From Kaistia hirudinis (GTDB taxonomy: Bacteria > Pseudomonadota > Alphaproteobacteria > Rhizobiales > Kaistiaceae), in NCBI RefSeq assembly GCF_014196455.1, contig NZ_JACIDS010000003.1, positions 372,001 through 436,000 on the forward strand: a DNA stretch of 64,000 nucleotides. The letters are read 5' to 3'. Position numbers and translations under genes: made by a program. The notes beneath the pieces were generated by a model. It searched no databases, was not told the DNA's origin, and worked only from the letters and a program-made list of their open reading frames with translations. Below, in pieces: positions 19,956-35,686 of this stretch (position 1 is its first letter; every line of letters begins with the position of its first letter).

Positions 19956-20112
19956 TAATGATCCTTTTGTAACAGCGGTCCTGCACGGCGTCCAGCAGGG
20001 CCCGCGTGGGCGCTCTTGTCAGGATTGGCGCAACTATCTCGCAGAGCAGCAATTTTTGCGCACTGCCGCATCGATCTGTACCGCTTGCGCCCTGAACCAA
20101 TCGCTGTTAGCG

Positions 20113-20150
20113 TGATCCAAAATCAAGCCAATTGGTTCACAATTGGATCA
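20113..20150. promoter_or_regulatory. Operator-like cluster upstream of the FAH-hydrolase operon
   Basis: TGATCCAA (20113-20120) and TTGGATCA (20143-20150) are exact inverted arms. Inside them is a palindrome CCAATTGG (20128-20135), and CAATTGG recurs 11 bp further on (20129-20135 and 20140-20146), about one helical turn. The cluster ends just before the CGGAGGG ribosome site of the gene at 20163 and lies between it and the divergent GntR gene, so it is a likely operator. Confidence 0.55.
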
Positions 20151-20162
20151 CGGAGGGAATGC

Positions 20163-21041
20163 ATGAAGCTCGCGTCATTCTCGGTCGCAGGGGAGCGCCG
20201 GGTCGGTGTCGTCGACGCCGATGCGCGCACGGTTGCGCCGTTCGACCTCAGCGCCTCTGAAGCCGCCCGCGGCGTCGTCGCCCTGATCGAGCGCAACGGC
20301 GCCGGTCTGCCGCGCACGCTTTCGCCGATCCCCCTTGGCGCGGTGACGCTGGAGGCGCCGATTCCGGTGCCGAGCCGCAACATCTTCTGCGTCGGCAAGA
20401 ATTATTTCGAGCATGCGAGCGAGTTCGCCAAGAGCGGCTTCGATTCGAGCGCGGCGGCTGGAACGGTCCCCAAGCACCCGATCATCTTCTCCAAGGTTCC
20501 GGAATCGGTGATCGCGACCGGCGAGCCGGTGGTCATCGATCCCGCGGTCTCCACCGCGATCGACTATGAGGCCGAGCTCGCCGTGATCATCGGCAAGGGC
20601 GGCCGCGGCATCGCCAAGGAGGATGCCTATGATCACGTCTGGGGCTACACCATCGTCAACGACGTGACGGCGCGCGACCTGCAGGGCCGTCACAGCCAAT
20701 GGCTGATCGGCAAGTCGCAGGATACATTCTGTCCCATGGGACCCTGGGCGGTCACGAAGGACGCGTTCGACATCGAGACGGCGGCGGTGCGCTGCTTCGT
20801 CAATGGCGACATGCGCCAGAACGCGAAGGTCTCCATGCTGATCTTCGACATCCCCACCATCATCTCGACCCTGTCGCAGGGCATCACGCTGAAACCGGGC
20901 GACATCATCGCCACGGGCACGCCGGTCGGCGTCGGCATCGGCTTCGATCCGCCGAAATATCTGAAGGCCGGCGATGTGGTCCGCGTCGAGATCGACGGCA
21001 TCGGCGCGATCGAGAACCGCTTTGCGGAGCGTGCGGCATGA
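20163..21041 (+). CDS. Fumarylacetoacetate hydrolase (FAH) family protein
   Basis: The protein has 292 residues. The FAH fold is clear: CVGKNYFEHASE near residue 76, metal ligands Glu 136 and Glu 138 in IDYEAELAV, and Asp 167 in GYTIVNDVTARD. A C-terminal GDIIATGTPVGVG block completes the site. Members hydrolyse or decarboxylate beta-diketo acids and related intermediates late in aromatic degradation. CGGAGGG lies 6 nt before ATG 20163; the frame is open further up but that part covers the operator region. It is the first gene of a twelve-gene operon and overlaps the next by 4 bp. Confidence 0.92.
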   Translation: MKLASFSVAGERRVGVVDADARTVAPFDLSASEAARGVVALIERNGAGLPRTLSPIPLGAVTLEAPIPVPSRNIFCVGKNYFEHASEFAKSGFDSSAAAGTVPKHPIIFSKVPESVIATGEPVVIDPAVSTAIDYEAELAVIIGKGGRGIAKEDAYDHVWGYTIVNDVTARDLQGRHSQWLIGKSQDTFCPMGPWAVTKDAFDIETAAVRCFVNGDMRQNAKVSMLIFDIPTIISTLSQGITLKPGDIIATGTPVGVGIGFDPPKYLKAGDVVRVEIDGIGAIENRFAERAA

Positions 21042-21820
21042 CCACCGCGCAGGTCGGTCCGATCGTTGCCGAGGTCGAGGGCGAAGGCCCGGCCGTCGTG
21101 ATGATCCACGGGCTCGGCGGCACGTCCAACATGTTCCAGCCGCAGATGCAGGCGCTCGCCGGGCATCGCGTGATCCGGCTCGACATGCCCGGCTCCGGCC
21201 GCTCGCCGCGCCCGGTGGAGCCTCTCTCCATGGAAGGCATCGGCCGCGCCGTCGTGACGGCGCTCGGTGCGCTCGGCGTGACGCGGGCGCACTTCGTCGG
21301 TCATTCCATGGGTACGATCACCTGCCAGTGGATCGCCGCCAACCATGCCGCGCTGGTCGGATCCTTGATCCTGCTCGGCGCGCTGGCCGAGCCGGGCGAG
21401 GCGACCCGCAAGGGTCTTGCCGGCCGCGCGCGGCTCGCGCGGAGCGGCGGGATTTCGGATATCGGCGATCAGATCATCGCGGGCGCCATCTCGGCGCATA
21501 CCCGCGAGAATTCGCCGGCCGCCGTCGCTTTCGTGCGCGAGAGCATCACGCGGCAGGATCCCGAATCCTATGCCCTGACATGCGAGGCGCTGGCGGCAGC
21601 ACAGGCTGTGGATCCGCGCCGGATCGCGGCGCCGGCCCTGCTTCTCACCGGCGACGCGGATGCGGTCAATCCGCCGAGCGTCGCCCAGGCCCTGGCGGAT
21701 TCGATCAAGGGGGCGTCCTTCGCCTCGATCGATCGGGTCGGCCATTGGGCCACCATTGAAGCCCCGCGGGAAGTCGCCAGGAGGATGGCCGATTTTCTGC
21801 ACCGCGTCGGAGCCTCATGA
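21038..21820 (+). CDS. Alpha/beta hydrolase
   Basis: The protein has 260 residues. The oxyanion HGLGG is at 24-28, the nucleophile elbow GHSMG at 88-92 (Ser 90), the acid probably lies in LLTGDADAVNP, and the catalytic His in VGHWATIE. Similar enzymes act as 3-oxoadipate enol-lactonases or ring-cleavage-product hydrolases. The ATGA overlap with the FAH gene indicates coupled expression. An enol-lactone or C-C bond substrate is a guess from the neighbour. Confidence 0.88.
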   Translation: MTTAQVGPIVAEVEGEGPAVVMIHGLGGTSNMFQPQMQALAGHRVIRLDMPGSGRSPRPVEPLSMEGIGRAVVTALGALGVTRAHFVGHSMGTITCQWIAANHAALVGSLILLGALAEPGEATRKGLAGRARLARSGGISDIGDQIIAGAISAHTRENSPAAVAFVRESITRQDPESYALTCEALAAAQAVDPRRIAAPALLLTGDADAVNPPSVAQALADSIKGASFASIDRVGHWATIEAPREVARRMADFLHRVGAS

Positions 21821-21861
21821 CGATCTGAGACCAACGCGCTGAATGCCAACGGGAGGAAGGC

Positions 21862-23175
21862 ATGGCAGACGACTGGAACGGCAATGGGAGCACGCTCTTC
21901 ACCAATGTGCGCATCCTCGATGCGACGGGAGAGTATCCCTATACCGGCGAAGTGCTCGTCCAGGGCAACCGCATCAAGCAGGTGACGCGCGGCTCGTCCC
22001 GCTTCGGGACGTCGTCGTCGACCTATGGCGGCACCACCGTCATCGACGGCATGGGCGCGACGCTCATGCCCGGCATGATCGATGCGCATCTGCATCTCTC
22101 CTGGAACAATGCGCCCGGCATCGACCCCATCCAGATGATGGAGGTCGAGGAGCACATGCTCGTCACCATGGAGATGGCGAAGCTCGTCATCGATGCCGGC
22201 TTCACGGGCGGCCGCGGGGCGGCCTCGGCCAAGCCGCGTCTCGACGTGGTCGCGAAGAAGTTCATCAATCAGGGCCGCTTCCCGGGTCCGCGCTATCTCG
22301 CGGCCGGGCCCGAGATCACTACGGTCGGCGGCCTCGGCGACGCCGCGCCCTCGCATATCCCGCATGAGGGGCTCAATCTCGGCCTCGTCATCTCCGGGCC
22401 CGAGGAGGTGCGCCGCACGGTCCGCACGCTGATCAAATACGGCGTCGATTCGATCAAGCTCAACCTCTCCGGCGAATCCCTGACCGGCATGGGCGCCGAA
22501 GAGACGCCGATGTCGGAGGAAGAGGTCGCCATGGCGGCCAGCGAGGCGCGCTGCCGCAACAAGGTGCTGTCGGCCCATGCCCGCTCCTCCGGCTCGGTGA
22601 AGCAGTGCATCCGTCACGGCATCCAGAACATCTACCACGCGTCCTTTGCCGACGAAGAAGCGCTCGACATGCTTGAGGCGGCCAAGGACCGCCACATCGT
22701 GGCGCCCGGCATCGCCTGGCTGATCAATACGGCGCGCTATGCGGCCGAATGGGGCATCAAGCCCGGCTCGCGGGTCACGATCGAATATGAGCGCGAGCTC
22801 GAGATGTGCATCGAGACGATGAAGAAGATGCATCGCCGCGGCATCCGCATCTGCATCGGCGGCGACTATGGCTTCGCCTGGACGCCGCAGGGCACCAACG
22901 CCAAGGACATCGAGACCTTCGTCACCATGCTCGGCTTCTCGCCCATGGAGGCGATCCAGGCCGCGACGAAATATGGCGGCCACATCATGAACATGGCCGA
23001 CGAGCTCGGCCTGATCAAGGAAGGCTATCTGGCCGATATCATCCTGGTCGACGGCGACCCGATTTCCGACGTGCGCATCCTGCAGGACCGGAACCGCCTG
23101 CTCGCGATCATGAAGGACGGCAAGTTCCACAAGGCACCGCGGCTCAACGAGCAGCGCCGCCGGCTCTCGGCCTGA
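21862..23175 (+). CDS. Amidohydrolase family protein (imidazolonepropionase/prolidase-like)
   Basis: The protein has 437 residues of the metal-dependent hydrolase superfamily. HLHL after PGMIDA gives the HxH ligands, SIKLNLSGE probably holds the carbamylated lysine, SAHARS and IYHASF supply the metal histidines, and GGDYGFAW the catalytic Asp. The C-terminal beta-sandwich block GYLADIILVDGDPI is typical. No signal peptide. GGAGGAAGGC precedes the ATG. It would hydrolyse a cyclic amide, lactam or dipeptide-like substrate. It is placed between the hydrolases and the transporter of the same operon. Confidence 0.87.
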   Translation: MADDWNGNGSTLFTNVRILDATGEYPYTGEVLVQGNRIKQVTRGSSRFGTSSSTYGGTTVIDGMGATLMPGMIDAHLHLSWNNAPGIDPIQMMEVEEHMLVTMEMAKLVIDAGFTGGRGAASAKPRLDVVAKKFINQGRFPGPRYLAAGPEITTVGGLGDAAPSHIPHEGLNLGLVISGPEEVRRTVRTLIKYGVDSIKLNLSGESLTGMGAEETPMSEEEVAMAASEARCRNKVLSAHARSSGSVKQCIRHGIQNIYHASFADEEALDMLEAAKDRHIVAPGIAWLINTARYAAEWGIKPGSRVTIEYERELEMCIETMKKMHRRGIRICIGGDYGFAWTPQGTNAKDIETFVTMLGFSPMEAIQAATKYGGHIMNMADELGLIKEGYLADIILVDGDPISDVRILQDRNRLLAIMKDGKFHKAPRLNEQRRRLSA

Positions 23176-23188
23176 CGGGGAGACCATC

Positions 23189-24232
23189 GTGAGCCTCGCC
23201 GATCAGCCGAAAAGCGCGATCGAGAGCAACGGCCTCAGCCGGCGGCAGGGATTCCTGCTGCTGTGGCTGCTGGTCGCCGCGCTCGTCGCGCTGCCGATCT
23301 TCGCGCCCTGGCCGGCCTGGCTGAATGCCGTGCTCATCTCGAAGAAGGCCTTCGTCAGCGCCATCATGAACGGCATCACGCTGGCCGGTCTCTATTTCCT
23401 GGTCGCGAGCGGCTTCACGCTGGTCTTCGGCCTGATGCGCAACGTCAATCTCGCGCATGGCTCGCTCTATCTGCTCGGCGCCTATATCGGCTATTCGGTC
23501 ACGCAGTGGACCGGCTACTGGCTGGTCGGCGTCGCCGCCGGCTTCCTGGCGCTGGCGCTCATCGGCATTCTCATGCAGGTCATCGTGTTCCGGCGGCTGG
23601 AGGGGGACGATCTCCGCCAGACGCTGGTGACGATCGGCATCTCGATCGTGGCGGCGGACCTGATGCTCGCCGTGTGGGGTGGCCAGACCTATCAGCTCGC
23701 GACGCCCGAATGGCTCGACGGCGCCGTGACGCTGCCCATCATCACCGCGACGCGCTCGAACGGCGCCGCCGTGTTCCTCACCTTTCCGCTCTATCGCCTC
23801 GTCGTCCTCGCCGGCGCGATTGTGATCGGCGTCGCGCTCTGGCTGATGCTGAACCGCACCCGCGTCGGCATGATGATCCGCGCCGGCGTCGATGATCGCG
23901 CCATGCTGTCGGCGTCGGGCGTCAATGTGCATATGGTCTTCGCCATCGTGTTCGCGATCGGCGCCGGCCTTGCGGGCTTTGCCGGTGTCGTCGGCGGCTC
24001 GGCGCTCTCGATCGCGCCCGGCGAGGATGTGCGCTACCTGCTCGCCTCGCTGGTCGTCGTGATCGTCGGCGGCATGGGCTCGATCCCGGGCGCGGCGATC
24101 GGCGCGCTGCTGATCGGCCTCGCCGAGCAGATCGGCCTCGTCTATTTCCCGACCTATGGCGTGGTGCTGACCTTCGTCATCATGGTCGTGACGCTCGCCA
24201 TCCGCCCGCAGGGCATCATGGGGAGGGGCTGA
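23189..24232 (+). CDS. Branched-chain-type ABC transporter permease (LivH-like)
   Basis: The protein has 347 residues, with a hydrophobic N-terminus and the LivH hallmarks NGITLAGLYFLVASGFTLVFGLMR and NLAHGSLYLLGAY, the EAA-like loop and the GGMGSIPGAAIGALLIG C-terminal block. It starts at GTG 23189, 6 nt after GGGGAG. It forms the channel with the next gene. The HAAT family imports amino acids, amides, urea and aromatic acids, so the name does not fix the substrate. Confidence 0.92.
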   Translation: MSLADQPKSAIESNGLSRRQGFLLLWLLVAALVALPIFAPWPAWLNAVLISKKAFVSAIMNGITLAGLYFLVASGFTLVFGLMRNVNLAHGSLYLLGAYIGYSVTQWTGYWLVGVAAGFLALALIGILMQVIVFRRLEGDDLRQTLVTIGISIVAADLMLAVWGGQTYQLATPEWLDGAVTLPIITATRSNGAAVFLTFPLYRLVVLAGAIVIGVALWLMLNRTRVGMMIRAGVDDRAMLSASGVNVHMVFAIVFAIGAGLAGFAGVVGGSALSIAPGEDVRYLLASLVVVIVGGMGSIPGAAIGALLIGLAEQIGLVYFPTYGVVLTFVIMVVTLAIRPQGIMGRG

Positions 24233-25260
24233 TGGCGACGACCGATCTCCCTGCCGCCTCGGCCGCGAAGGGAAACTGGTTCGAGCGCATCGGCGCCGGG
24301 CATTTCCTGCTCGCCGTCGCCCTGCTCGTCTATCCCGCCGTCGCATCTGATTTCTTCCTGACGCAGATCGGCGGCTATTCGCTGGTGCTCGGCATGCTGG
24401 CGCTGTCGCTGATGATGCTGGCCGGCTATGGCGGCATGGTCAGCCTCGCCCAGATCACCGTCGCGGGCGTCGCCGGCTATGCGGTGGCGATCTTCGGCGA
24501 GAACGGCGCCAATGTGCTCGGCTTCGGCTGGCCGTGGTGGATCGTGGTGCCCTGGGCCGTGCTGCTCGCCTCGATCGCCTCGGCGCTGATCGGCTGGATC
24601 GCCGTGCGCACGCAGGGCATCTACACGATCATGATCACGCTCGCGATCGCGACGGCCATATTCTATTTCGCGCAGCAGAACTACGCCATCTTCAACGGCT
24701 TCTCGGGCTTTGCCGGCGTGCGGGCGCCGCAGTTCTGGGGCGTCGACTGGCGCGCGCCGCTGCCCTTCTACTATCTCTGCCTCGGCATCGCCGTGCTCGC
24801 CTATGTCGCCGTGCTCTATGGCGCGCGCTCGACCTTCGGGCTGACGTTGCAGGCCGTGCGCGACAACCCCCGGCGCATGCGCGCGATCGGCTATGACGTC
24901 ACGGCGCACAAGGTGTTTGCCTGGTTCATCGCCGGCATCGTGGCCGGGCTCGCGGGCGTGCTGATGGTCTGGTTCAATGGCCGGATCTCGCCCGGAACGA
25001 TCGGCGTCGGCGCGGCGATCAACATCCTGATCATCGCGGTGATCGGCGGCATGCGCCACCCGATCGGACCGTTCATCGGCGCGGTGGTCGTCGTCTTGAT
25101 GCAGACCTTCGCGATCGACATCGTCGGCGCGCAGCGCTTCAACACACTGATCGGACTGGTATTTCTGGCGATCGTCTTCTTTTCGCCGGATGGGATTCTT
25201 GGGCTTTGGGAGAGGATCAAGCCGCATCTGGCCCAGGAGGGGTTGCGTCCGGGCGGCTGA
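24232..25260 (+). CDS. Branched-chain-type ABC transporter permease (LivM-like)
   Basis: The protein has 342 residues and many transmembrane helices, with LivM blocks LAGYGGMVSLAQITVAGVAGY, ALQAVRDNPRRMRAIGYDV and VIGGMRHPIGPFIGAVVV. The start overlaps the LivH-like stop by one base (TGATG), ensuring equal synthesis of the two membrane subunits. Its C-terminus, with ILGLWERIKPH, ends 42 bp before the binding-protein gene. Confidence 0.92.
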   Translation: MATTDLPAASAAKGNWFERIGAGHFLLAVALLVYPAVASDFFLTQIGGYSLVLGMLALSLMMLAGYGGMVSLAQITVAGVAGYAVAIFGENGANVLGFGWPWWIVVPWAVLLASIASALIGWIAVRTQGIYTIMITLAIATAIFYFAQQNYAIFNGFSGFAGVRAPQFWGVDWRAPLPFYYLCLGIAVLAYVAVLYGARSTFGLTLQAVRDNPRRMRAIGYDVTAHKVFAWFIAGIVAGLAGVLMVWFNGRISPGTIGVGAAINILIIAVIGGMRHPIGPFIGAVVVVLMQTFAIDIVGAQRFNTLIGLVFLAIVFFSPDGILGLWERIKPHLAQEGLRPGG

Positions 25261-25302
25261 TCGGACGAACGGACATCCAACGATAACCGAGGGAGGAAGA
25301 AC

Positions 25303-26550
25303 ATGAAGATCCATCGCAGGGCCCTGCTCGCCCTGGCCGTGGCGACCGCATTCACGGCGCCGGGCTTCGCATTCGCTGCCGACGACACCATCAAGATCGG
25401 CCTGCTCGCAACCTTCGAAGGGCCGTTCACCGTGCTCGGCGAGGATGGCGAGCGCGGCGCGATGACCGCGATCGGCGAGGCCGGCGGCATGGTCGGTGGC
25501 AAGAAGATCGAGATCGTGAAGGGCTCGTCCGACGCCTCGCCCGACAGCGCCGTGCGCGCTGCGCGCAAGCTGGTCGAGCAGGACGGCGTCAAGGTGCTGA
25601 TCGGACCGCTCTCGGGCGACGAGGGCATCGCGGTCAAGGACTATGCCAAGACCCAGCCGGGCGTGACCTTCATCAACGGCTCGTCGGCCGCGCAGGACAC
25701 GACCTTCCGCGATCCGGCGGAGAACTTCTTCCGCTTCTCGACCGACGGCGCGCAGTGGATGGCCGGTCTCGGCACCTACGCCTACAACGACAAGGGCTAC
25801 AAGACCGTCGCGACGGTCGCCGAGGACTATTCCTTCCCCTATACGCAGGTGTTCGGCTTCATGGCCGAGTTCTGCAAGGCCGGCGGCAAGGTTCCGTCCA
25901 AGTCCTGGGTGCCGATCGGCAACAAGGATTATTCCTCGGTCATCGCCGCGATCCCCGACAATGTCGACGCGATCTATGTCGCGCTGGGCGGTGCCGACGC
26001 GGTCAACTTCCTGACGCAGTACCAGCAGTCGGGGGGCAGCGCGCCGCTGATCGGCGGCTCGATCACCGTCGACCAGACCGTGCTGACGGCGCAGGGCAAG
26101 CTCCGTGACGTGCTCGTCGGCACGCCTTCGGCCGGCCCGACGGCCGATACCAATGATGCACCGGCCTGGAAGGCCTTCGTGGAGGAATACAAGAAGCAGC
26201 CGGGCGCGTTCCCCTCGCCCTCGCTCTTCGCGCATGCCTACTACGTCAACACCAAGGCCGCGCTCATCGCCCTCGACGAAGTCAAGGATGACCTCTCCGA
26301 CGGCGGCAAGGCGTTCCGCGAGGCGCTCGCCAAGGTCTCGTTCGATTCGCCCACCGGCAAGGTGTCGCTCGACGCCAACCGCAACGGCATCGCCGACATC
26401 TTCCTGACCGAAGTCTCGGAAGGGGCGGACGGAACGCTGCTGAACAAGCTGATCAAGGTCGTGCCGCAGGTCAACCAGACCCTCGGCATTCCCGAGGATC
26501 AGTTCCGTGCGCTCGGTGCGGTCAGCCGCGACAATCCCAGCTGCTCCTGA
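25303..26550 (+). CDS. Branched-chain-type ABC transporter substrate-binding protein
   Basis: The protein has 415 residues. The signal peptide is 1-26 (cleavage at AFA-ADD). The mature part has the Leu/Ile/Val-binding fold opening TIKIGLLATFEGPF, then VKVLIGPLSGDEG and VAEDYSFPYTQVFGF in the hinge and second lobe. GGGAGGAAG precedes the ATG. It defines the specificity of the importer; neighbouring hydrolases suggest a cyclic or aromatic compound rather than an amino acid, but that is inference. Confidence 0.92.
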   Translation: MKIHRRALLALAVATAFTAPGFAFAADDTIKIGLLATFEGPFTVLGEDGERGAMTAIGEAGGMVGGKKIEIVKGSSDASPDSAVRAARKLVEQDGVKVLIGPLSGDEGIAVKDYAKTQPGVTFINGSSAAQDTTFRDPAENFFRFSTDGAQWMAGLGTYAYNDKGYKTVATVAEDYSFPYTQVFGFMAEFCKAGGKVPSKSWVPIGNKDYSSVIAAIPDNVDAIYVALGGADAVNFLTQYQQSGGSAPLIGGSITVDQTVLTAQGKLRDVLVGTPSAGPTADTNDAPAWKAFVEEYKKQPGAFPSPSLFAHAYYVNTKAALIALDEVKDDLSDGGKAFREALAKVSFDSPTGKVSLDANRNGIADIFLTEVSEGADGTLLNKLIKVVPQVNQTLGIPEDQFRALGAVSRDNPSCS

Positions 26551-26573
26551 GCTTTGTGACGGGTCACGCCACC

Positions 26574-27359
26574 ATGGCCGAGAATTCAGTCGCCTCACGT
26601 CTCCAGGGAACCGGCGCCTTCGCGCTGGAGCTCGAGGGCGTCGGGCGCCAGTTCGGAGCCCTGGTGGCGCTGGCCGGCATCGATATGAGGATCGCGGCCG
26701 GCGAACGGCGCGCGGTCCTCGGCTCCAACGGCGCCGGCAAGACGACGCTGTTCAATACGATCACCGGCGACTTTCTGCCGACCAGTGGCCGCATTCGCTT
26801 CTTCGGCGAGGATATCACCACGCTGCCGGCGCATGAGCGCATCCGGCGCGGGCTGCGCCGCACCTATCAGATCTCGCAGCTCTTCAAGGGGCTGAGCGTG
26901 ATCGATTCGATCTTCCTCGCCTGCCGCGGCGTGTCGCGGCGGCGCTTCTCGCTGCTGCGGCCCGCCGCCACCGACGTCAACATGGTCCAGGCGCAGTCGA
27001 TCCTGCATGCCGTGCATCTGGAGGCCGAGCGCGACATCCTCGTCGCGACGCTCTCGCATGGCCAGCAGCGCCAGCTCGAAATCGCACTCGCGCTCGCCGG
27101 CGCGCCGCGCTTCATCCTGTTCGACGAGCCGGCCGCCGGCCTGTCGCCGACCGAACGGCGCGATCTCGTCGCGATCCTGAACGCGCTGCCGAAGCATATC
27201 GGCTACGTCATCATCGAGCACGATCTCGACGTGGCGCTGCGCGTCTCCGAGCGCGTGTCGATGATGCACAATGGCCGCCTGTTCAAGGAGGGGACGCCCG
27301 AGGAGATCGAGAACGATCCCGAGGTCCAGGAGATCTATCTGGGAGGGCGCCATGGCTGA
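26574..27359 (+). CDS. ABC transporter ATP-binding protein (LivG-like)
   Basis: The protein has 261 residues from ATG 26574; GTG 26556 is an alternative start. Walker A GSNGAGKTT is at 50-58. The Q-loop region RRTYQISQLF has the LivG-type spacing, the signature reads LSHGQQRQ and Walker B is ILFDEPAAGLSP. His in IIEHDLDV is the switch. It overlaps the following ATPase fusion gene by 8 bp. It energises the importer together with the next gene's first domain. Confidence 0.9.
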   Translation: MAENSVASRLQGTGAFALELEGVGRQFGALVALAGIDMRIAAGERRAVLGSNGAGKTTLFNTITGDFLPTSGRIRFFGEDITTLPAHERIRRGLRRTYQISQLFKGLSVIDSIFLACRGVSRRRFSLLRPAATDVNMVQAQSILHAVHLEAERDILVATLSHGQQRQLEIALALAGAPRFILFDEPAAGLSPTERRDLVAILNALPKHIGYVIIEHDLDVALRVSERVSMMHNGRLFKEGTPEEIENDPEVQEIYLGGRHG

Positions 27360-29598
27360 GCAGAGGATGGCCGAGCGCGCGCAGCCGGCCGCGAAGGCGG
27401 TGCTGCGGATCGACGATCTCCAGGTCTATTACGGCGAGAGCCATGCGCTGCAGGGCGTGTCGCTGACGCTCAAGAGCGGCGTGCTGTCGGTCGTCGGCCG
27501 CAACGGCATGGGCAAGACGACGCTCTGCAATACGATCACGGGCTTGAAGCGTGCGCGCTCCGGCTCGATCCGGCTGAACGGGCGCGAGATCTCCTCGCTC
27601 GAACCGCACGAGATCCATCGGCTCGGCATCGGCTATGTGCCGCAGGGCCGCCGCGTCTGGCCGAGCCTCACGGTGGACGAGCATCTGCGCCTCGCTGCCG
27701 GCGGACGGCGCGACGCGTCCTGGACCGTCGAGCGCGTCTACCAGACCTTCCCGCGCCTCGCCGAACGGCGCGGCAATGGCGGTTCGCAGCTTTCGGGCGG
27801 CGAACAGCAGATGCTGGCGATTTCGCGCGCCCTGCTCTCCGATCCGAAGCTGCTCGTCATGGACGAGCCGACCGAGGGCCTCGCGCCGGTCATCGTCGAC
27901 CAGGTCGAGCGCATGCTGGTCACGCTCGGCGTGGAAGGCGAGATGGCGATCCTCGTCATCGAGCAGAATATCGGCGTCGCGACGGCGATCTCCGATCAGG
28001 TCGCGATCATGGTCAATGGCCGCGTCAATCGCATCATGGATGCGAAGGCGCTGGCGGCCGACCGCGACCTGCAGCAGCGCCTGCTCGGCGTCGGCCGGCA
28101 TGGCGAGGAGGTCGAGGCGGTCAGCGCCGCGGAGGTGAGCGAGGCGCGTGAACAACTCGCCGAGGTCTACCGGATCGCGCGCGGCGAGGAGGCCGGTGGC
28201 GTCCCCGGCGAGCCGGTCGCAAGCGCAACCGGCATGTATCGGCCGGTGACCGAGCTGCCCAATCGCTGGAACGTCCCGGTCACGGCGATGCGACAGGCGG
28301 CGGTCGAAAAGGCGCGCCCGGCGGAAGACCTCTCGGCCGTCTTCCATATGCCCTTTGCGGAGCGGATCGGCCGCACGGTCCTGGTCGTCGGCACCTTCGA
28401 TACGAAGGGCAGGGAGCTGCGCTTCCTCGCCGACAAACTGAAGGCGTTGCGCATTCCGGTCCGCACCGTCGATCTCTCAACCTCCGGCAAGCCGGCCGCC
28501 GTCGATGTGCCGGCCTCGCAGGTGGCGGCGATGCATCCGGGCGGCACGTCGGCCGTGTTTTCCGGCGATCGCGGCGCCTCGGTCACGGCGATGGCCGACG
28601 CCTTCGCCCGCTGGGTGGCGCGCGAGCGCGGCATCGGCGGCGTCGTCTCGGCCGGCGGCTCCGGCGGCACCACGCTGGCGACGGCCGGCATGCGGGCGCT
28701 TCCCGTCGGCATTCCCAAGCTCATGGTCTCGACCGTCGCGGCGGGCGATGTCGGGCAATATGTCGGCGGCGCCGACATCCTCATGCTGCACTCGGTCGCC
28801 GATGTGCAGGGGCTGAACGCGATCACCGAGGCGGTGCTCGGCAATGCCGCGCATGCCATGGCCGGCATGGTGGCGCAGCTTCCCTCGGGCGACGCCTGGG
28901 AGCAGAAGCGGCGGACGGCTCGACCCGCCATCGGCATCACCATGTTCGGCGTCACGACGCCGGCGGTGCAGGCGGTGACGCGCCGGCTCGAAGCCTCCTA
29001 TGACTGCCTCGTCTTCCACGCGACGGGCACCGGCGGCCGGGCGATGGAGAGCCTCGGCGATTCCCGCCTCCTCACCGCCTTCCTCGATCTCACCACCACC
29101 GAGGTCGCCGACATGCTGGTCGGCGGCGTCTTCCCGGCGACGGCGGATCGTTTCGGCGCCGCGATCCGCACCGGCATCCCCTATGTCGGCTCGGTCGGGG
29201 CGCTCGACATGGTCAATTTCGGCCCGCGCGAGAGCGTGCCGGAGAAGTTCCGCGGCCGGAACTTCGTCGTCCACAATCCGAACGTCACCCTGATGCGCAC
29301 GACGCGCGACGAGAACCGCGCATTCGGCGAATGGATCGGCGAACGGCTGAACGCCATGAACGGGCCGGTGCGTTTCCTGCTGCCCGAGGGTGGCGTTTCC
29401 CTGCTCGATGCGCCCGGCAAGCCGTTCCACGATCCCGAGGCCGACAATGCGCTTTTCGAGGCGCTGGAGCGCACGGTGCGCCAGACGCCGCAGCGTCGCA
29501 TCGAGCGCGTTCGCGGCAATATCAATGACGAGAGCTTCGTCGAGGCGGCCGTCGCTGCCTTCCAGTCCATCACGCCAAAGCTGCCGAGGAGCGCCTGA
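27352..29598 (+). CDS. LivF-like ABC ATPase fused to a UPF0261 (Tm-1-like ATP-binding) domain
   Basis: The protein has 748 residues, three times the usual LivF. The first about 245 are a complete LivF: Walker A GRNGMGKTT (49-57), VPQGRRVWPSLTV, signature LSGGEQQ (147-153), Walker B LLVMDEP (167-173). A charged linker of about 90 residues leads to a UPF0261 domain from about 340, marked by LVVGTFDTKG (344-353), VSAGGSGGTT, MVSTVAAGDVGQYVG and LPEGGVSLLDAPG. UPF0261 matches the N-terminal half of the plant Tm-1 resistance protein; the C-terminal half is coded by the next gene. The start ATG 27352 overlaps the LivG stop. The role of the second domain is unknown; it may bind nucleotide or process the imported ligand. 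Confidence 0.88.
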   Translation: MAEQRMAERAQPAAKAVLRIDDLQVYYGESHALQGVSLTLKSGVLSVVGRNGMGKTTLCNTITGLKRARSGSIRLNGREISSLEPHEIHRLGIGYVPQGRRVWPSLTVDEHLRLAAGGRRDASWTVERVYQTFPRLAERRGNGGSQLSGGEQQMLAISRALLSDPKLLVMDEPTEGLAPVIVDQVERMLVTLGVEGEMAILVIEQNIGVATAISDQVAIMVNGRVNRIMDAKALAADRDLQQRLLGVGRHGEEVEAVSAAEVSEAREQLAEVYRIARGEEAGGVPGEPVASATGMYRPVTELPNRWNVPVTAMRQAAVEKARPAEDLSAVFHMPFAERIGRTVLVVGTFDTKGRELRFLADKLKALRIPVRTVDLSTSGKPAAVDVPASQVAAMHPGGTSAVFSGDRGASVTAMADAFARWVARERGIGGVVSAGGSGGTTLATAGMRALPVGIPKLMVSTVAAGDVGQYVGGADILMLHSVADVQGLNAITEAVLGNAAHAMAGMVAQLPSGDAWEQKRRTARPAIGITMFGVTTPAVQAVTRRLEASYDCLVFHATGTGGRAMESLGDSRLLTAFLDLTTTEVADMLVGGVFPATADRFGAAIRTGIPYVGSVGALDMVNFGPRESVPEKFRGRNFVVHNPNVTLMRTTRDENRAFGEWIGERLNAMNGPVRFLLPEGGVSLLDAPGKPFHDPEADNALFEALERTVRQTPQRRIERVRGNINDESFVEAAVAAFQSITPKLPRSA

Positions 29599-30432
29599 GT
29601 GCCGCGTCTTGATCGATCCCAGTTGATGGAGCGCTTCCAGGAGATGAAGCGCCGCCGGATTCCCATCGTCGGCGGCGGTGCCGGCACGGGGCTCTCAGCC
29701 AAATGCGAGGAAGCGGGCGGCATCGACCTGATCGTCATCTACAATTCCGGCCGCTATCGCATGGCCGGCCGCGGCTCGCTCTCCGGCCTGCTCGCCTATG
29801 GCAATGCCAACGAGATCGTCATGGACATGGCGAAGGAGATTCTTCCGGTCGTCCGCAAGACGCCGGTGCTGGCCGGCGTCAACGGCACCGATCCCTTCTG
29901 CTCCTTCGATCATTTCCTCGACCGGGTGAAGGCGGTCGGCTTTGCCGGCGTGCAGAACTTCCCGACGGTCGGCCTGATCGACGGGACGTTCCGGGCGAAT
30001 CTCGAGGAGACCGGCATGTCCTATGCTCTCGAGATCGACATGATCCGCCTCGCCCATGAGAAGGACCTGCTGACGACGCCCTACGTCTTCAACGAGGACG
30101 AGGCCGCCGCCATGGCGCGGGCCGGCGCGGACATCGTCGTCTGCCATCTCGGGCTGACCACGGGCGGGGCGATCGGCGCCGAGACGGCGCTGAAGCTCGA
30201 AGACGTGCCGGCGAAGGTCGACGCTTGGTCGGAAGCGGCGCTCCGCGTCAACAAGGACGTGATCATCCTCGTCCATGGCGGCCCGGTCGCCGAGCCGGAG
30301 GACGCGGAATATGTGCTCCGCAACACGGCGAACTGCCACGGATTCTACGGCGCCTCCTCCATGGAGCGCCTGCCCGCCGAGCGGGCTCTGACGGAACAGA
30401 CGAAGAAGTTCAAGTCGGTCGCCTTCGGCTGA
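29599..30432 (+). CDS. Phosphoenolpyruvate hydrolase/TIM-barrel signal-transduction family protein (Tm-1 C-terminal-like)
   Basis: The protein has 277 residues and starts at GTG 29599 directly after the preceding stop, with GAGGAG 7 nt upstream. It is a TIM-barrel protein with [18 protein letters not shown] at the N-terminus, [43 protein letters not shown] and a C-terminal [13 protein letters not shown]. This family is annotated as PEP hydrolase-like and forms the C-terminal part of plant Tm-1. No catalytic role is proven. Tight coupling to the UPF0261-containing gene argues that the two products act together. Confidence 0.87.
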
Positions 30433-30458
30433 CCGGATTGGAATTGGGAGGAGGCATC

Positions 30459-32630
30459 ATGGCTGCGCAGGCTTTCGGCGCGTTGCTGATCTGGCTGATC
30501 ATTCTGGCGATCGTCGTCGTGGTCGCCGTCTATGTCCTGCGCTGGCTGTACCGGCGCTCGACCAAGGAAACGGCGTTCGTCCGCACCGGCTTCCTCGGCG
30601 AAAAGGTGGTCGTCAATGGCGGCGCCTTCGTGATCCCCGTGCTGCACGAGATCACGCCGGTGAACATGAACGTCATGCGCATCGAGGTGCGGCGCGAGGA
30701 CGCCATGGGCCTGATCACGCGCAACCGCATGCGCGTCGATCTGGTCGCCGAGTTCTTCGTGCGCGTCGGTGCCAGCAAGTCGCTGGTGGCCGCCGCCGCG
30801 CAGACGCTCGGCCGGCGCACGCTGCGCGAGGATGGCCTGCGCGAACTGCTCGAAGGCAAGTTTACCTCGGCGCTTCGCACGGTCGCCGCACAGATGACTC
30901 TCGAAGAGATGCATGAGCGCCGGGCCGACTATGCGGCCGCCGTGCATGCGCTCGCCTCGGACTCGCTCGCCGCCAACGGGCTGGAGCTCGAAAATGTCGC
31001 GATCGTCGATCTCGACCAGACGAGCCTCGAATTCTTCGATCCCTCCAACGCGTTCGATGCCGAAGGCCTGACGCAGCTGACCGAGACGATCGAGATCCGG
31101 CGGCGCATGCGCAACGAGATCGAGCAGAAGACGCTGGTCGATATCCGCAACCAGAACCTCGATACGCAGCGCCGCGTGCTCGAGATCGATCGCGAGAGCG
31201 AATATGCCCGCCTCGAACAGGAGCGCGAGGTCGAGATCCGCCGGGCGGCGCAGCGTGCCGATCTGGTGCGCGAGCGGGCCGTGCGCGAGCAGGAGGCCGA
31301 GCAGGCGCAGCTGTCGGCGCGCGAGGCCGTCGAAAAGTCCCGCCTGGCGCAGGACCGCGCGATCACCGACGAGCGGATCCGCAATGAGGAAGAGACGCAG
31401 CGCCGCGAGATCGCGCGCCGCCGTGCCCTCGACGAGGCGGAGCTGAAGACGCGCGAGCTGACCGAGCGCGAGCAGATCGCGCTGCAGCTTTCGCTCGAAA
31501 GCGCGCGGATCGAGCGCGAGCGGGCGCAGGAAGAGCTGGAGATCGCCCGGCGGAGAGCGCTGGAGATCGTGGAACTCGAACGGCAGGTCGCGCTGGCCGA
31601 GAAGTCGCTCGAAGTGACCCGCGCCGAGGCCGAGAAGCGTCGCGCCGAGATCGTGGCGAACCAGGAGACCGAGGTGACCCGCGTCGCGCAGGAGCGGGCG
31701 CTGGACGAGGTTCGGGTGGCGCGCGAGCGTCATCTGGAGGCACTGCAGATCGCCAAGCGGCAGGCCTTCGAGGAGGCCGAGATCGCGGCGGCCGAGGAGG
31801 TCGAGCGCGCGCGGATCACCACAGAGCGCGGCATCGAGGAGGCGAAGCTGATCAAGGAGCGCGAACTGCGCCAGCTCGCCGTCGCCCGCGACCAGCAGGT
31901 CGAGATCGCCGAGATCCAGAAGGCGATCGACATCGCCAAGAAGACGCAGGAACGCTCGGCGGCGATCGCGGCCTCCGAGGCCGTGCGCGCCAAGGCGATC
32001 CAGGCCGAGGAGCAGGCTCTGACGGCGCGCGAGCGCGAGGTCGCCGAGCGGCGCAAGCTCACCGACCTGATCGCGGCCGCCCGCGAGGCGGAGCGCGAGG
32101 CGCTGCGCATCACCGCGGCGGCGGATGCGGAGATGAAGGCGGCGAAGAGCCTCGCCGAGGCCCAGAAGATCGCGGCGCTCGCCAATGCGGAGGCCGAGAA
32201 GATCGCGGCGCTGGCCGCAGCCGAGCGCTATGCCGTCGACGCCGCCGGCCAGTCGAAGCTCAACGAGGCCGACAACCTTCTCTCCGAGGAGGCGCGCTCC
32301 GGCCGCCTGCGCGGCAAGCTGCTCGAGCATATGGAAGGCATCATCCGCGAGAGCGTGAAGCCGATGGAGAAGATCGAGGGCATCAAGATCCTCCATGTCG
32401 ACGGCATGAATGGCGGCGCGGGTTCGAACCGCAACGTCACCGACGAGGTGATCGACTCCGCCCTGCGCTACCGCGTCCAGGCGCCGATGATCGACAAGCT
32501 GATGAAGGAGATCGGCATCGAGGGCGGCTCGCTCGGCCGCATGACCGACGTGCTGCGCGACGCCAAGGACATTTCGAGCCTGGCTCGCAAGGAGGATCGC
32601 GCCAAGGACGACAATGACCGCGACCGCTAA
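30459..32630 (+). CDS. Flotillin family protein (long SPFH/coiled-coil)
   Basis: The protein has 723 residues. One N-terminal transmembrane segment (about 8-28) is followed by an SPFH domain (about 35-210, with VIPVLHEITPVNMNVMRIEV). An extremely charged Glu/Arg/Ala coiled coil runs over about 215-590, and a C-terminal oligomerisation region follows. GGGAGGAGG precedes ATG 30459. Flotillins organise membrane microdomains and scaffold complexes. It is longer than most bacterial flotillins (about 500-650). The usual NfeD partner gene is absent on both sides; instead it sits between transport and catabolic genes. Confidence 0.9.
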   Translation: MAAQAFGALLIWLIILAIVVVVAVYVLRWLYRRSTKETAFVRTGFLGEKVVVNGGAFVIPVLHEITPVNMNVMRIEVRREDAMGLITRNRMRVDLVAEFFVRVGASKSLVAAAAQTLGRRTLREDGLRELLEGKFTSALRTVAAQMTLEEMHERRADYAAAVHALASDSLAANGLELENVAIVDLDQTSLEFFDPSNAFDAEGLTQLTETIEIRRRMRNEIEQKTLVDIRNQNLDTQRRVLEIDRESEYARLEQEREVEIRRAAQRADLVRERAVREQEAEQAQLSAREAVEKSRLAQDRAITDERIRNEEETQRREIARRRALDEAELKTRELTEREQIALQLSLESARIERERAQEELEIARRRALEIVELERQVALAEKSLEVTRAEAEKRRAEIVANQETEVTRVAQERALDEVRVARERHLEALQIAKRQAFEEAEIAAAEEVERARITTERGIEEAKLIKERELRQLAVARDQQVEIAEIQKAIDIAKKTQERSAAIAASEAVRAKAIQAEEQALTAREREVAERRKLTDLIAAAREAEREALRITAAADAEMKAAKSLAEAQKIAALANAEAEKIAALAAAERYAVDAAGQSKLNEADNLLSEEARSGRLRGKLLEHMEGIIRESVKPMEKIEGIKILHVDGMNGGAGSNRNVTDEVIDSALRYRVQAPMIDKLMKEIGIEGGSLGRMTDVLRDAKDISSLARKEDRAKDDNDRDR

Positions 32631-32660
32631 AGCCGTTGGGGAGCTTCAGGGAGCATCGGA

Positions 32661-33098
32661 ATGACCAAGGTCTATGTCTCCTCGGTCATTCCCGCGCCCG
32701 CGGCGTCCGTCTGGGCGGTGATCCGCGATTTCAACGCGCTCCCCGCCTGGACGCCGTTCGTCGCGGAGAGCCGGATCGAGCAGCACATGCTGCCCGACCA
32801 GATCGGCTGCATCCGAAACTTCGCGCTGAAGGATGGCGGTCGCATCCGCGAGCGGCTTCTGGCGCTCTCCGACTACGATCTCTCCTGCACCTATTCGATG
32901 CTGGAGAGCCCGATGGGCGTCGAGAACTATATCGCGACGCTGTCGCTGACGCCGATCACCGACGGCAACCGGACCTTCGCCGCCTGGCAGGCGGAATTCG
33001 ACTGCGCGCCCGAGCGGGAAGGTCAGCTCGCCCGCGATATCGCCAATGGCGTGTTCCAGGCGGCGTTCACCGCCCTCCAGAAGCGGTTCCAGCGCTGA
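32661..33098 (+). CDS. SRPBCC family protein
   Basis: A 145-residue polyketide-cyclase/START-like beta-barrel with the opening IPAPAASVWAVIRDFNALPAWTPFV and a long C-terminal helix. These proteins bind hydrophobic ligands and some have cyclase or hydrolase activity. The N-terminal region is clearly related to the SRPBCC half of the next gene (both have VWAxxRDFN and a shared length), so the two arose by duplication. Its function here is unknown; carrying or sequestering a hydrophobic intermediate is plausible. Confidence 0.87.
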   Translation: MTKVYVSSVIPAPAASVWAVIRDFNALPAWTPFVAESRIEQHMLPDQIGCIRNFALKDGGRIRERLLALSDYDLSCTYSMLESPMGVENYIATLSLTPITDGNRTFAAWQAEFDCAPEREGQLARDIANGVFQAAFTALQKRFQR

Positions 33099-33100
33099 CC

Positions 33101-34606
33101 ATGGTCGAGGTCCGCCGCTCCACCATCATCGACGCGCCGGTCGACGAGGTCTGGGCGATCCTGCGCGACTTCAACGGCCATGAAAGCTGGCATCCGGCCG
33201 TGGCGACGAGTGCGATCGAACACAGCGCGCCGGTCGACATGATCGGCGCCGTCCGCCGCTTCCGCCTCTCCGATGGCAGCGAACTGCGCGAACAGCTCCT
33301 CTCCCTGTCGGACAAGGATTGGAGCTTCTCCTATTGCATCCTGGAAGCGCCGATCCCGCTGATGGGCTATGTCGCCACCGTCCGCCTGAAGCCGGTCACG
33401 GATGGCGACGCCACCTTCTGGGAATGGCGCTCCACCTTCCATCCGCCGGAGAACCGCAAGCGCGAACTGACGGCACTGGTTGCCGACCAGATCTACAGCG
33501 CCGGCTTCGAGGCGATCCGCAAGCTCATCGCCGCGCGCTCCGGCCGGATGCGTCCCGCCGCGCCCGCTGCGCCGCCGGCCGCCGCGCCGCAGCCTGTCCC
33601 TGTTGCCGACCGGGCGGCCTCGCCCGGCACCGAACGCACCCAGGCGATCATCGTCGACCGCTATGGCGGGCCGGAGGTGCTGCGCTGGGGCGAGGTGGCC
33701 GTGCAGCCGCCGGAGCCGGGCGAGATCCGGATCCGGCACCGGGCGATCGGCGTCAATTTCATCGATATCTACTGCCGCACCGGCTATTTCGACCTGCTGC
33801 AGCCGCCCGGCGTGCCCGGCATGGAGGCGGCCGGCGTGGTGGATGCGGTCGGGCCGGGTGTTACGGCCTTCGCGGTCGGCGACCGCGTCGCCTATGCCTG
33901 TCCGCCGGTCGGCGCCTATTGCCGGCTCCGCACCATGTCCGCCGAGCTCGTCGTGCCGCTCCCGCCCGACATTGACGAGGAGACGGCCGCCGCCGGCCTG
34001 CTCAAGGGCGTCTCGGCCTCGTTCCTGCTGCATGATGTGGAGCGGGTCGGCGCTGGCGATGTGGTGCTGATCCATGCGGCCGCCGGCGGGATCGGTCAGC
34101 TCCTCGTCCAATGGGCGCGCCATCTCGGTGCTACGGTGATCGCGACGGTTTCGAACGACGACAAGGCCGCGACGGTCGAGGCGCTCGGCGCCCACCATGT
34201 GATCGTCTATTCGCGCACCGATTTCGCGGCGGCCGTGCTCGACATCACCGGCGGGGCGGGCGCCGATGTCGTCTATGACGCAGTCGGCCGCGATACGATC
34301 GCCGGCTCGATCCGCGCGCTGGCCGCGCCCGGCCATCTCGTCAGTTTCGGCCAGGCGTCGGGCCCGGTCGGCGAAATGGATGTTGGCCGCCTCGCGTCGA
34401 AGTCGATCACCCTGTCGCGCCCCAATTACGGGCACTACACCGATACGGGTGCCAAGATCGCGCGCCATGCGGAGCGCATCTTCGCGGCGCTCCGCTCCGG
34501 CGCCGTCCGCGTCGCGCCGCCGCGCCGCATCCCGCTCGCCGACGCCGCCGAGGCGCACCGCCTGCTCGAATCGCGCGCGACCAGCGGTTCGCTGATCCTC
34601 GTCTGA
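33101..34606 (+). CDS. SRPBCC domain fused to NADPH:quinone oxidoreductase (MDR)
   Basis: The protein has 501 residues in two parts. Residues 1-145 are an SRPBCC barrel (APVDEVWAILRDFNGHESWHP). A Pro/Ala-rich linker (about 148-178) joins it to a full quinone oxidoreductase/zeta-crystallin domain (about 180-501) with DRYGGPEVLRW, GVNFIDIYCRTG, GVPGMEAAG and the nucleotide motif AAAGGIGQLLVQWA. No zinc ligands, as expected for QOR. There is no internal stop or frameshift, and the ATG is 2 bp after the preceding stop, so the fusion is real in this sequence. It may hand a bound quinone or enone to the reductase domain. Confidence 0.88.
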   Translation: MVEVRRSTIIDAPVDEVWAILRDFNGHESWHPAVATSAIEHSAPVDMIGAVRRFRLSDGSELREQLLSLSDKDWSFSYCILEAPIPLMGYVATVRLKPVTDGDATFWEWRSTFHPPENRKRELTALVADQIYSAGFEAIRKLIAARSGRMRPAAPAAPPAAAPQPVPVADRAASPGTERTQAIIVDRYGGPEVLRWGEVAVQPPEPGEIRIRHRAIGVNFIDIYCRTGYFDLLQPPGVPGMEAAGVVDAVGPGVTAFAVGDRVAYACPPVGAYCRLRTMSAELVVPLPPDIDEETAAAGLLKGVSASFLLHDVERVGAGDVVLIHAAAGGIGQLLVQWARHLGATVIATVSNDDKAATVEALGAHHVIVYSRTDFAAAVLDITGGAGADVVYDAVGRDTIAGSIRALAAPGHLVSFGQASGPVGEMDVGRLASKSITLSRPNYGHYTDTGAKIARHAERIFAALRSGAVRVAPPRRIPLADAAEAHRLLESRATSGSLILV

Positions 34607-34612
34607 CGGCGT

Positions 34613-35677
34613 TCAGCGCTTCCAGGTCCGCTCCAGCAGGTCGAGCCAGTTCTCGCGCGCGATGCGGGCGATGAGCGCCTCGCCATAGCCGCTGGCGCGC
34701 ATCTTCTCGATGAGCGCCGGCAGATGCGCCGCGTCGTGAAGCTCGGACGGCACCACCGCGCCGTCATAGTCCGAGCCGATCGCGACACCGCCCTCGCCGA
34801 GCTTTTCGATGAGGGCGTCGAGATGGCGCATGACGATGTCGAGCGCGGGGGTCGCCAGCATCTTGCCGTCGGGTCGCAGGAAGGCCGTCGCGAAATTGAG
34901 GCCGACGACGCCGCGGCGCTCGGCGATGGCGTCGAGCTGGCGGTCCGTCAGATTGCGCGAGACCGGGCAGAGGCGGTGCACGTTGGAATGGGTCGCGACC
35001 AGCGGCGCGTCGGACAGTTCCGCGACGTCCCAGAAGCCCTGCTCGGTGATGTGCGAGAGGTCGATCACCATGCCGAGCCGGTTGCAGGCGCGCACCAGCG
35101 CGCGGCCGGCGTCGGTGAGGCCCGGCCCAGTGTCCGGAGAAGAAGGAAACCGCATCGGCACGCCATGGCCGAAGCGATTGTGCCGGCTCCAGACCGGACC
35201 GATCGAGCGCAGGCCCGCCGCGTAGAGAACGTCGAGCATGTCGAGATCGGCGCCGATCGCCTCGGCCCCCTCGATATGCATCACGGCGGCGATGGCGCCG
35301 CGCCGCATCGCCGCACGGATGTCCGCAACGCTCCGGCAGACGGCGAGCGCGCCGGCGGACGCCTGTTCGAGACGGAACAGGATCGCGGCCATGGCGAGCG
35401 TCGACGCCTGGCCCTCGGCGAGCGTCAGCGGATCCGGCAGCGGCAGGTCGTAGCCGTCGCCCAGCATGGCATCCATGAAGGCCGCCGACATCGGCGAGGG
35501 CGGAAAGATCGCGAACATCCCGCCGGCGAAGCCGCCGGCGCGGGCGCGCGGCAAGTCGATATGCCCGGCCTCGGTTCCGGCGAGGAAGGCCTGGATGCCC
35601 GATTCGCCGCCCTCATTGTAGAGGCGGAGCAGCACGTCGTTATGGCCGTCGAAGACGGCGACGGGGGCGGTGGGCAT
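34613..35677 (-). CDS. Membrane dipeptidase family (peptidase M19)
   Basis: The protein has 354 residues. Zinc-site motifs of renal-dipeptidase-like enzymes are all present: DGHND (His 12, Asp 14), HIEGAE with the bridging Glu, DLSH, THSNVH and GSDYDGAV. No signal peptide, so cytoplasmic. The family hydrolyses dipeptides and some cyclic or D-configured substrates. It is convergent with the SRPBCC-QOR gene with 6 bp between the stops, and lies 9 bp downstream of the nitroreductase gene on the same strand. Confidence 0.9.
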   Translation of the reverse strand: MPTAPVAVFDGHNDVLLRLYNEGGESGIQAFLAGTEAGHIDLPRARAGGFAGGMFAIFPPSPMSAAFMDAMLGDGYDLPLPDPLTLAEGQASTLAMAAILFRLEQASAGALAVCRSVADIRAAMRRGAIAAVMHIEGAEAIGADLDMLDVLYAAGLRSIGPVWSRHNRFGHGVPMRFPSSPDTGPGLTDAGRALVRACNRLGMVIDLSHITEQGFWDVAELSDAPLVATHSNVHRLCPVSRNLTDRQLDAIAERRGVVGLNFATAFLRPDGKMLATPALDIVMRHLDALIEKLGEGGVAIGSDYDGAVVPSELHDAAHLPALIEKMRASGYGEALIARIARENWLDLLERTWKR

Positions 35678-35686
35678 GGCGGAAAT

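Follow-up and report, generated by a model that had tools for sequence, protein, structure and literature searches.

The window analysed here, a stretch of 64,000 nucleotides from Kaistia hirudinis (assembly GCF_014196455.1, contig NZ_JACIDS010000003.1, positions 372,001 to 436,000 of the forward strand), raises the question of what a UPF0261 (Tm-1-like) domain might be doing at the end of an importer ATPase. Positions 27352-29598 of the window (+ strand) encode a single protein of 748 residues, in which a complete LivF-type ATP-binding cassette (ABC) ATPase is followed by a disordered linker of around 90 residues and a complete UPF0261 domain. An earlier note on this DNA, made from the sequence alone, had described the fusion at exactly these coordinates, with the ATPase motifs intact and the UPF0261 domain in the same frame past the linker, and our data bear out this description. 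What it missed was the conserved operon in which the fusion lies, with genes for a PF09370 protein, a flotillin-like protein, SRPBCC proteins and redox and hydrolase enzymes, and an arginine-tryptophan pair within the linker. Comparison of sequences establishes the fusion, its integrity and wide conservation, the Arg-Trp pair and the operon.

The open frame spans 27271-29598 (+), with a plausible ATG start at 27352 that gives an overlap of eight bases with the end of livG (26556-27359). The earlier note had suggested domain searches, a count of genomes with the same fusion and a structure prediction, and these were carried out, the last for the fusion alone. In a Pfam search of residues 1-748, ABC_tran matches residues 33-174 with 105 bits (cut-off 25), the UPF0261 N-terminal domain PF06792 matches residues 342-508 with 193.2 bits (cut-off 27; 28375-28875, including the GTFDTKG and GGSGGTT motifs), and UPF0261_C (PF23189) matches residues 524-740 with 299.5 bits (cut-off 27; 28921-29571), each far above its threshold; the NCBIfam model NF002673 (cut-off 520) scores 562 bits over residues 341-741. 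An AlphaFold2 model built from 51 fused sequences (mean predicted local distance difference test score, pLDDT, 84.9; predicted template modelling score, pTM, 0.57) consists of two confident domains, with the ATPase at residues 14-248 or thereabouts (27391-28095), separated by the linker (residues ~249-337; 28096-28362), where residues 248-258 and 265-332 have a pLDDT below 50. Owing to this disorder, the model does not fix the placement of one domain relative to the other.

The ATPase half keeps its motifs. Across the 51 aligned fusions, residues 49-55 and 57 of Walker A (27496-27522), the signature LSGGEQ (residues 147-152; 27790-27807) and residues 168 and 171-173 of Walker B (27850-27870) are invariant, and residues 56 and 167 are nearly so. 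ABC ATPases of known structure match this half, 1ji0 with Z 32.6 and a root mean square deviation (rmsd) of 2.3 over 236 residues (VIA-align). The nearest NCBIfam models are UrtE and LivF, although the score lies under the cut-off for both equivalogs: 166.3 bits for E. coli LivF (NF008626, cut-off 441) and 223.2 bits for UrtE (TIGR03410, cut-off 285.8). The remaining importer genes directly precede the fusion on the same strand and are assigned by Pfam as a LivH-like permease (23189-24232; PF02653), a LivM-like permease (24232-25260; PF02653), a LivK-like substrate-binding protein (25303-26550; PF13458) and a LivG-like ATPase (26556-27359; PF00005 and PF12399). LivF is the cytoplasmic ATPase subunit of Liv-type importers, and since the UPF0261 domain is fused to it, the domain would be held at the cytoplasmic face of the importer, as the earlier note proposed. 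The window protein itself contains no permease domain detectable by Pfam; two deposited records, from Variovorax and one other, name the fusion 'ABC transporter permease', a database name that our finding corrects.

Structures of UPF0261 proteins give insight into the role of the C-terminal half. The closest solved structure is tomato Tm-1 (3wrx; Z 37.0, rmsd 3.7 over 397 residues, VIA-align). PDB entry 9MPY, whose title describes the UPF0261 domain protein Saro_1862 of Novosphingobium aromaticivorans with acetovanillone bound, was matched by a profile of the fused clade (E 1.9e-77) and by structure to fusion residues 340-745 (Foldseek; VIA-align Z 32.7, rmsd 7.0 over 390). The motifs DTK, GGS, FH-x-x-G-x-GG, TE and HN are common to the window protein and 9MPY, and motifs are shared with Tm-1 as well. 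Among the other loci that we collected (numbered L, and genomes G), the protein of L204 is 69% identical to 9MPY, and its gene heads an operon (L216, 8961-14285) that continues with a biotin carrier, a biotin carboxylase, a carboxyltransferase and a haloacid dehalogenase (HAD) phosphatase; PF09370 is not among the seven neighbours scanned there. The accessible text on acetovanillone catabolism describes a kinase, a three-component carboxylase and a phosphatase, and names 'MarK, a single-component kinase' (PMC13101465). The L216 operon is thus a candidate acetovanillone-type cluster, and because its 9MPY-like gene stands where the kinase would be, beside carboxylase and phosphatase genes, we infer from the PDB title and this gene order that UPF0261 proteins are able to act as kinases of small molecules, and that MarK probably corresponds to Saro_1862. 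The earlier note spoke of an uncharacterised ATP-binding domain; with acetovanillone held in 9MPY and a gene order that points to a small-molecule kinase, 'uncharacterised' is out of date.

The possibility that the fused frame is a sequencing error at the junction or a chance read-through is excluded, because the orthologues carry the same single frame: it is common to 75 of the 80 top-ranking named loci and, among 384 further genomes of the class, to 18. Long-read confirmation of the junction, which the earlier note had suggested, is thereby made superfluous. In our class sample of 385 genomes, the window's included, UPF0261 scores above the cut-off in 49, and it shares a frame with a LivF-type ATPase in those 18 and in the window's own genome; this count drew on the loci that were kept, the matches without a locus (apart from the window's) having frames shorter than 500 residues. 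Within the phylum sample of 398 genomes the domain is above the cut-off in 37, and 14, again including the window's, have frames of at least 740 residues, a count that rests on frame length, the ATPase half being unchecked for genomes new to that sample. Only Haloferax volcanii among 14 well-known control genomes has a UPF0261 match. The fusion was found in six of 60 relatives, comprising none of 13 genomes of the same genus, two of 14 other family members and four of 33 other members of the order; one of the six (G434) is cut at a contig end.

From 577 confirmed places in named genomes, the 80 best were retained as the named loci. Those with the fusion in a single frame include Mesorhizobium, Bradyrhizobium, Roseibium, Jannaschia, Azospirillum and Bosea, as well as the betaproteobacteria Pseudorhodoferax and Rubrivivax. 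The five exceptions are L100, with two overlapping frames and a linker in which the Arg-Trp pair is intact, L158, interrupted by a run of N, L153 and L175, with UPF0261 and no LivF, and L179, where the two are adjacent separate genes. The counts for the named and the other genomes are not independent of each other, as L119 and L093, and likewise L133 and L090, are identical. On plasmids, 172 records match at E values up to 1e-100, and three of them cover at least 80% of the protein.

The linker that joins the two halves is poorly conserved, with one exception. Its length varies from 71 to 210 residues (median 85, n = 100), and in the 51-row alignment the mean fraction of the commonest residue is 0.34, against 0.77 for the ATPase and 0.72 for UPF0261. 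Arg305 and Trp306, in the motif PNRWN (residues 303-307; 28258-28272, + strand), are the only linker columns at 98%, and an Arg-Trp pair is found in 99 of 100 linkers, where about 10 would be expected from composition; the exception is L178. Relatedness of the sequences inflates this count, though the surrounding linker has nonetheless diverged. The pair is not seen at the LivF or UPF0261 ends of the unfused neighbouring genes of L179 and L069. We suggest that it may serve for docking.

On the basis of these comparisons we propose, tentatively and with a little less than even confidence, that the LivF-type ATPase of a Liv importer is joined by a flexible linker to a probable ATP-dependent small-molecule kinase, so that import and phosphorylation would be coupled. 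Besides the 9MPY comparison, this reading is favoured by the motifs kept in both halves, by the company of PF09370 at 13 of 14 unfused UPF0261 loci, by plant proteins in which UPF0261 is fused to a TIM-barrel domain (PMC5028733), and by L069 and L179, where an unfused livF beside an unfused UPF0261 gene links importer and UPF0261 even in the absence of fusion. The UPF0261 domain would phosphorylate a hydroxyl of its substrate, much as the kinase MarK initiates acetovanillone catabolism, and this substrate would be the compound brought in by LivKHMGF, perhaps an aromatic one. Acting at the cytoplasmic mouth of the importer, the tethered kinase would trap the compound at the membrane. The PF09370 protein may then act on the phosphorylated product, the SRPBCC proteins may carry hydrophobic ligands, the flotillin-like protein may organize the assembled proteins at the membrane, and breakdown would be completed by the redox and hydrolase enzymes. 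A stronger form of this proposal is an ABC-type group translocation, in which one assembly, perhaps scaffolded by the flotillin-like protein and docked through the Arg-Trp pair, imports and phosphorylates the substrate and hands it to a membrane-bound catabolic complex; this we consider doubtful.

The genes downstream of the fusion, all on the + strand, are those to which these roles would fall. First comes a PEP_hydrolase-like triosephosphate isomerase (TIM)-barrel protein (29599-30432; PF09370, 432 bits; PDB 2p10, E 1.6e-121), followed by the flotillin-like protein, with SPFH/Band 7 and Flot domains (30504-32630; PF15975, PF01145), a first SRPBCC (Polyketide_cyc2) protein (32661-33098; PF10604) and a second one fused to a zinc-type, medium-chain dehydrogenase/reductase (MDR) domain resembling NAD(P)H:quinone reductases (33101-34606; PF10604, PF08240 and PF00107; NF008024 271.6 bits, below its cut-off of 348). 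We counted such neighbours within each fetched stretch, same strand only, around 75 named fused loci, 25 other fused loci (the window included) and 14 unfused loci; for two of the unfused loci the downstream sequence is short. The flotillin-like gene accompanies the fusion in 69 of the 75 and 24 of the 25, and is seen at none of the 14; five of the six named exceptions end within 1 kb, L130 being the one that does not, and the single exception among the others is a contig end. PF09370 is present at 63 of the 75, 22 of the 25 and 13 of the 14 unfused loci, and each of the two SRPBCC genes at 65 of the 75 and 23 of the 25. In a record from Azospirillum, UPF0261, PF09370 and SRPBCC genes stand in succession. 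L130, on a gammaproteobacterial chromosome, has LivG and the fusion, with the other operon partners not recognised in its stretch of 21 kb.

Beyond this core the operon takes two forms. The MDR quinone-reductase-like domain marks the first, seen at 27 of the named and 14 of the other fused loci; all 14, and 24 of the 27, also have genes of the FAA-hydrolase, PcaD-like or amidohydrolase kind. A molybdenum hydroxylase marks the second (37 named and seven other loci), with an AraC regulator in 33 of the 37 and in all seven. One locus has both sets, and 11 named and three other fused loci have neither. A deposited Variovorax record displays the first set under its own annotation, and a Yoonia record the second. 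The two redox enzymes are distributed as if they replace each other. In the loci of subtype B, the second SRPBCC gene stands alone ahead of the molybdenum-hydroxylase genes, whereas in the window it is fused to the MDR domain.

The window's own operon, of subtype A, begins with an FAA_hydrolase family protein, a recurrent neighbour (20163-21041; PF01557, 240 bits), a PcaD (enol-lactonase)-like alpha/beta hydrolase (21038-21820; PF00561; TIGR02427 155.5 bits, below the cut-off of 255.85) and an amidohydrolase family protein resembling Xaa-Pro dipeptidases and carboxypeptidases (21862-23175; PF01979; PDB 3mtw and 2qs8), all on the + strand. These enzymes would suit an aromatic or heterocyclic substrate. 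The relatives of the LivK-like protein with solved structures include 4zpj, the best match, and 4ey3, 4evq and 4f06, the last three being aromatic-acid-binding proteins of Rhodopseudomonas palustris.

Several observations weigh against the proposal of a coupled kinase. The UPF0261 domain of the window is only about 30% identical to 9MPY and superimposes on it with the rmsd of 7.0 over 390 residues given above. The equation of Saro_1862 with MarK is itself a deduction, 9MPY being known from its title alone, and Saro_1862 is named in no paper found in the searchable literature, outside which most subscription papers lie. Neither a carboxylase nor a phosphatase is among the genes identified at 19239-36694, so the pathway of the window is not that of acetovanillone. 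PF09370 is missing, with sequence to spare, from the nearest relatives L101-L109 and from L112, L130, L063 and L064, and the first SRPBCC gene is also found with unfused UPF0261, at five of 14 loci. Finally, aromatic substrates are not the rule across the family, because a second UPF0261 gene adjoins a sugar-type importer: at L062, on contig C4 of the same genome, a free UPF0261-PF09370 pair is divergent from an ABC importer of this different class, together with Gfo/Idh/MocA, xylose-isomerase-like and cupin genes. Rhizobium johnstonii has a similar arrangement, in which a cupin gene comes after the pair and the pair is divergent from an importer of the sugar type. The UPF0261 family thus seems to serve several substrates.

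Three other explanations deserve consideration. C-terminal additions to importer ATPases are often regulatory, and MalK, MetN and ModC carry such domains. UPF0261 likewise follows the ATPase, by way of a linker, and MetN and MalK are among the structural matches of the ATPase half, so that the domain could be a sensor instead of an enzyme, binding ATP and the imported compound or its product and switching the ATPase off. However, it is nearly as conserved as the ATPase and keeps the motifs of 9MPY and Tm-1, which would be unexpected had catalysis been given up; moreover, the linker is long and disordered, and PF09370 accompanies the unfused form as well (13 of 14). We consider a sensor rather unlikely.

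The fusion might instead do no more than fix equal amounts and joint synthesis of two operon products, with neither channelling nor coupling. At L069 and L179 livF and the UPF0261 gene are separate neighbours, which means that losing a stop codon would be almost enough to create a fusion. PF09370 was found elsewhere in the genome in all eight cases tested (L101, L103, L105, L106, L109, L112, L063 and L064), in that of L105 beside a second, free UPF0261 gene (L217), and a pathway whose parts the nearest relatives hold apart evidently tolerates their separation. At the loci without PF09370 (L100-L109, L112, L063 and L064) the flotillin-like gene comes directly after the fusion. Against simple co-synthesis, the fusion has mostly been retained: when 133 UPF0261 domains were placed in a quick tree, the 100 fused rows all fell in one group of 106 (Shimodaira-Hasegawa-like approximate likelihood ratio test, SH-aLRT, 86). 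The near-universal Arg-Trp pair in an otherwise poorly conserved linker, absent from the separate genes of L069 and L179, also speaks against it, and we judge this explanation improbable too.

Less probable still is that UPF0261 and PF09370 form some other ATP-dependent enzyme at the importer, for example a ligase, hydrolase or lyase, with the acetovanillone of 9MPY a mere ligand. We take the plant TIM-barrel (TBST) domain and COG5564 both to be PF09370. A plant protein that unites UPF0261 with this barrel (PMC5028733, in the text accessible) and phylogenetic profiles that pair COG5441, given as UPF0261 in the accessible text, with COG5564 in fungi (PMC8963296) together suggest one joint reaction of the two; the 9MPY-like gene, however, occupies the place expected of a kinase, next to carboxylase and phosphatase genes, and its seven scanned neighbours do not include PF09370.

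The same tree bears on the history of the fusion. The fused label requires six changes, and well supported branches force five of them; when the labels are shuffled, the mean is 29.6. Of the six unfused rows within the 106-row group, L179, L153, L081 and L039 are truly unfused, and the others are the split frame of L100 and the N run of L158. The window protein groups with Mesorhizobium and its kin (UPF0261 domains 82-83% identical) and not with G410 and G411, genomes of its own family (67-69%); this, with the 13 genomes of the same genus that have no fusion, suggests horizontal transfer. A recently acquired island is not indicated by composition, the G+C content of the operon (0.66-0.69 in 4-kb steps) being the same as that of the rest of the window (0.65-0.70). 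In the record titled Frankia sp. RB7 (L140) the fusion is nested among Bradyrhizobium sequences, and the record is probably wrongly named or from a contaminated assembly.

Divergent from the operon lies a gene for a GntR regulator with an FCD domain (19239-19955, - strand; PF00392, PF07729), which occupies the same place in L100-L109. Between it and the first operon gene, a perfect inverted repeat, CAATTG-5-CAATTG (20129-20145), is a possible operator and occurs once in the window against 0.04 expected. As a conserved operator for the GntR gene it was rejected, since the exact repeat occurs in none of 224 loci, and among ten loci only L103 and L106 have anything loosely similar. A promoter scan of the operon gave no result above chance. 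Just past the operon, on the opposite strand, are a Peptidase M19 (membrane dipeptidase) gene and a nitroreductase-family gene (34613-36694).

If UPF0261 is indeed a kinase acting on the imported compound, this system would clearly exemplify an ABC importer that has its modifying enzyme built in. UPF0261, PF09370, the flotillin-like protein and SRPBCC form a short list of genes for tests of a joint role in soil-dwelling genera such as Bradyrhizobium and Mesorhizobium. The finding is also relevant to what the Tm-1-like proteins of plants, in which UPF0261 and a TIM barrel are joined, ordinarily do. A description of the LivF-UPF0261 fusion was not found in the searchable literature, from which most subscription papers are missing, and the main text of a study of how the UPF0261-TIM-barrel protein of plants evolved does not mention ABC, ATP or transporter.

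Several known systems can be compared with the fusion. Like LivF and UrtE of the Liv-type (HAAT) importers, it has complete ATPase motifs and lies in an operon with LivK, LivH, LivM and LivG; unlike them, it bears a C-terminal UPF0261 domain and scores under both equivalog cut-offs. With Saro_1862 it has the whole UPF0261 domain and its motifs in common, but Saro_1862 is not fused, and the neighbours of its 69% homologue are carboxylase and phosphatase genes, whereas those of the window's domain are an importer and PF09370. The identity to tomato Tm-1 (PDB 3WRW, 3WRX and 3WRY) is 44% over 384-397 residues, and both have a TIM-barrel partner; in plant Tm-1-like proteins UPF0261 is fused to the TBST barrel itself (PMC5028733, accessible text), while in the window it is fused to the ATPase and the barrel is a separate gene. 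The two-component phenol dikinases HpeHI and AcvAB start the catabolism of hydroxyphenylethanones by ATP-dependent phosphorylation, the step that we propose here, and HpeHI is built of ATP-grasp and swivel domains, not UPF0261 (PMC12167813 and PMC13101465, in the text accessible). We therefore rejected UPF0261 as a form of HpeHI, and the Hpe carboxylation pathway as that of the window operon, where carboxylase and phosphatase are not among the genes identified. A further parallel is the phosphoenolpyruvate:sugar phosphotransferase system, a group translocation in which uptake is linked to phosphorylation of the substrate; in the system described here, ATP-driven ABC transport would be combined with a tethered, probably ATP-dependent kinase, and the linkage between the two is a proposal.

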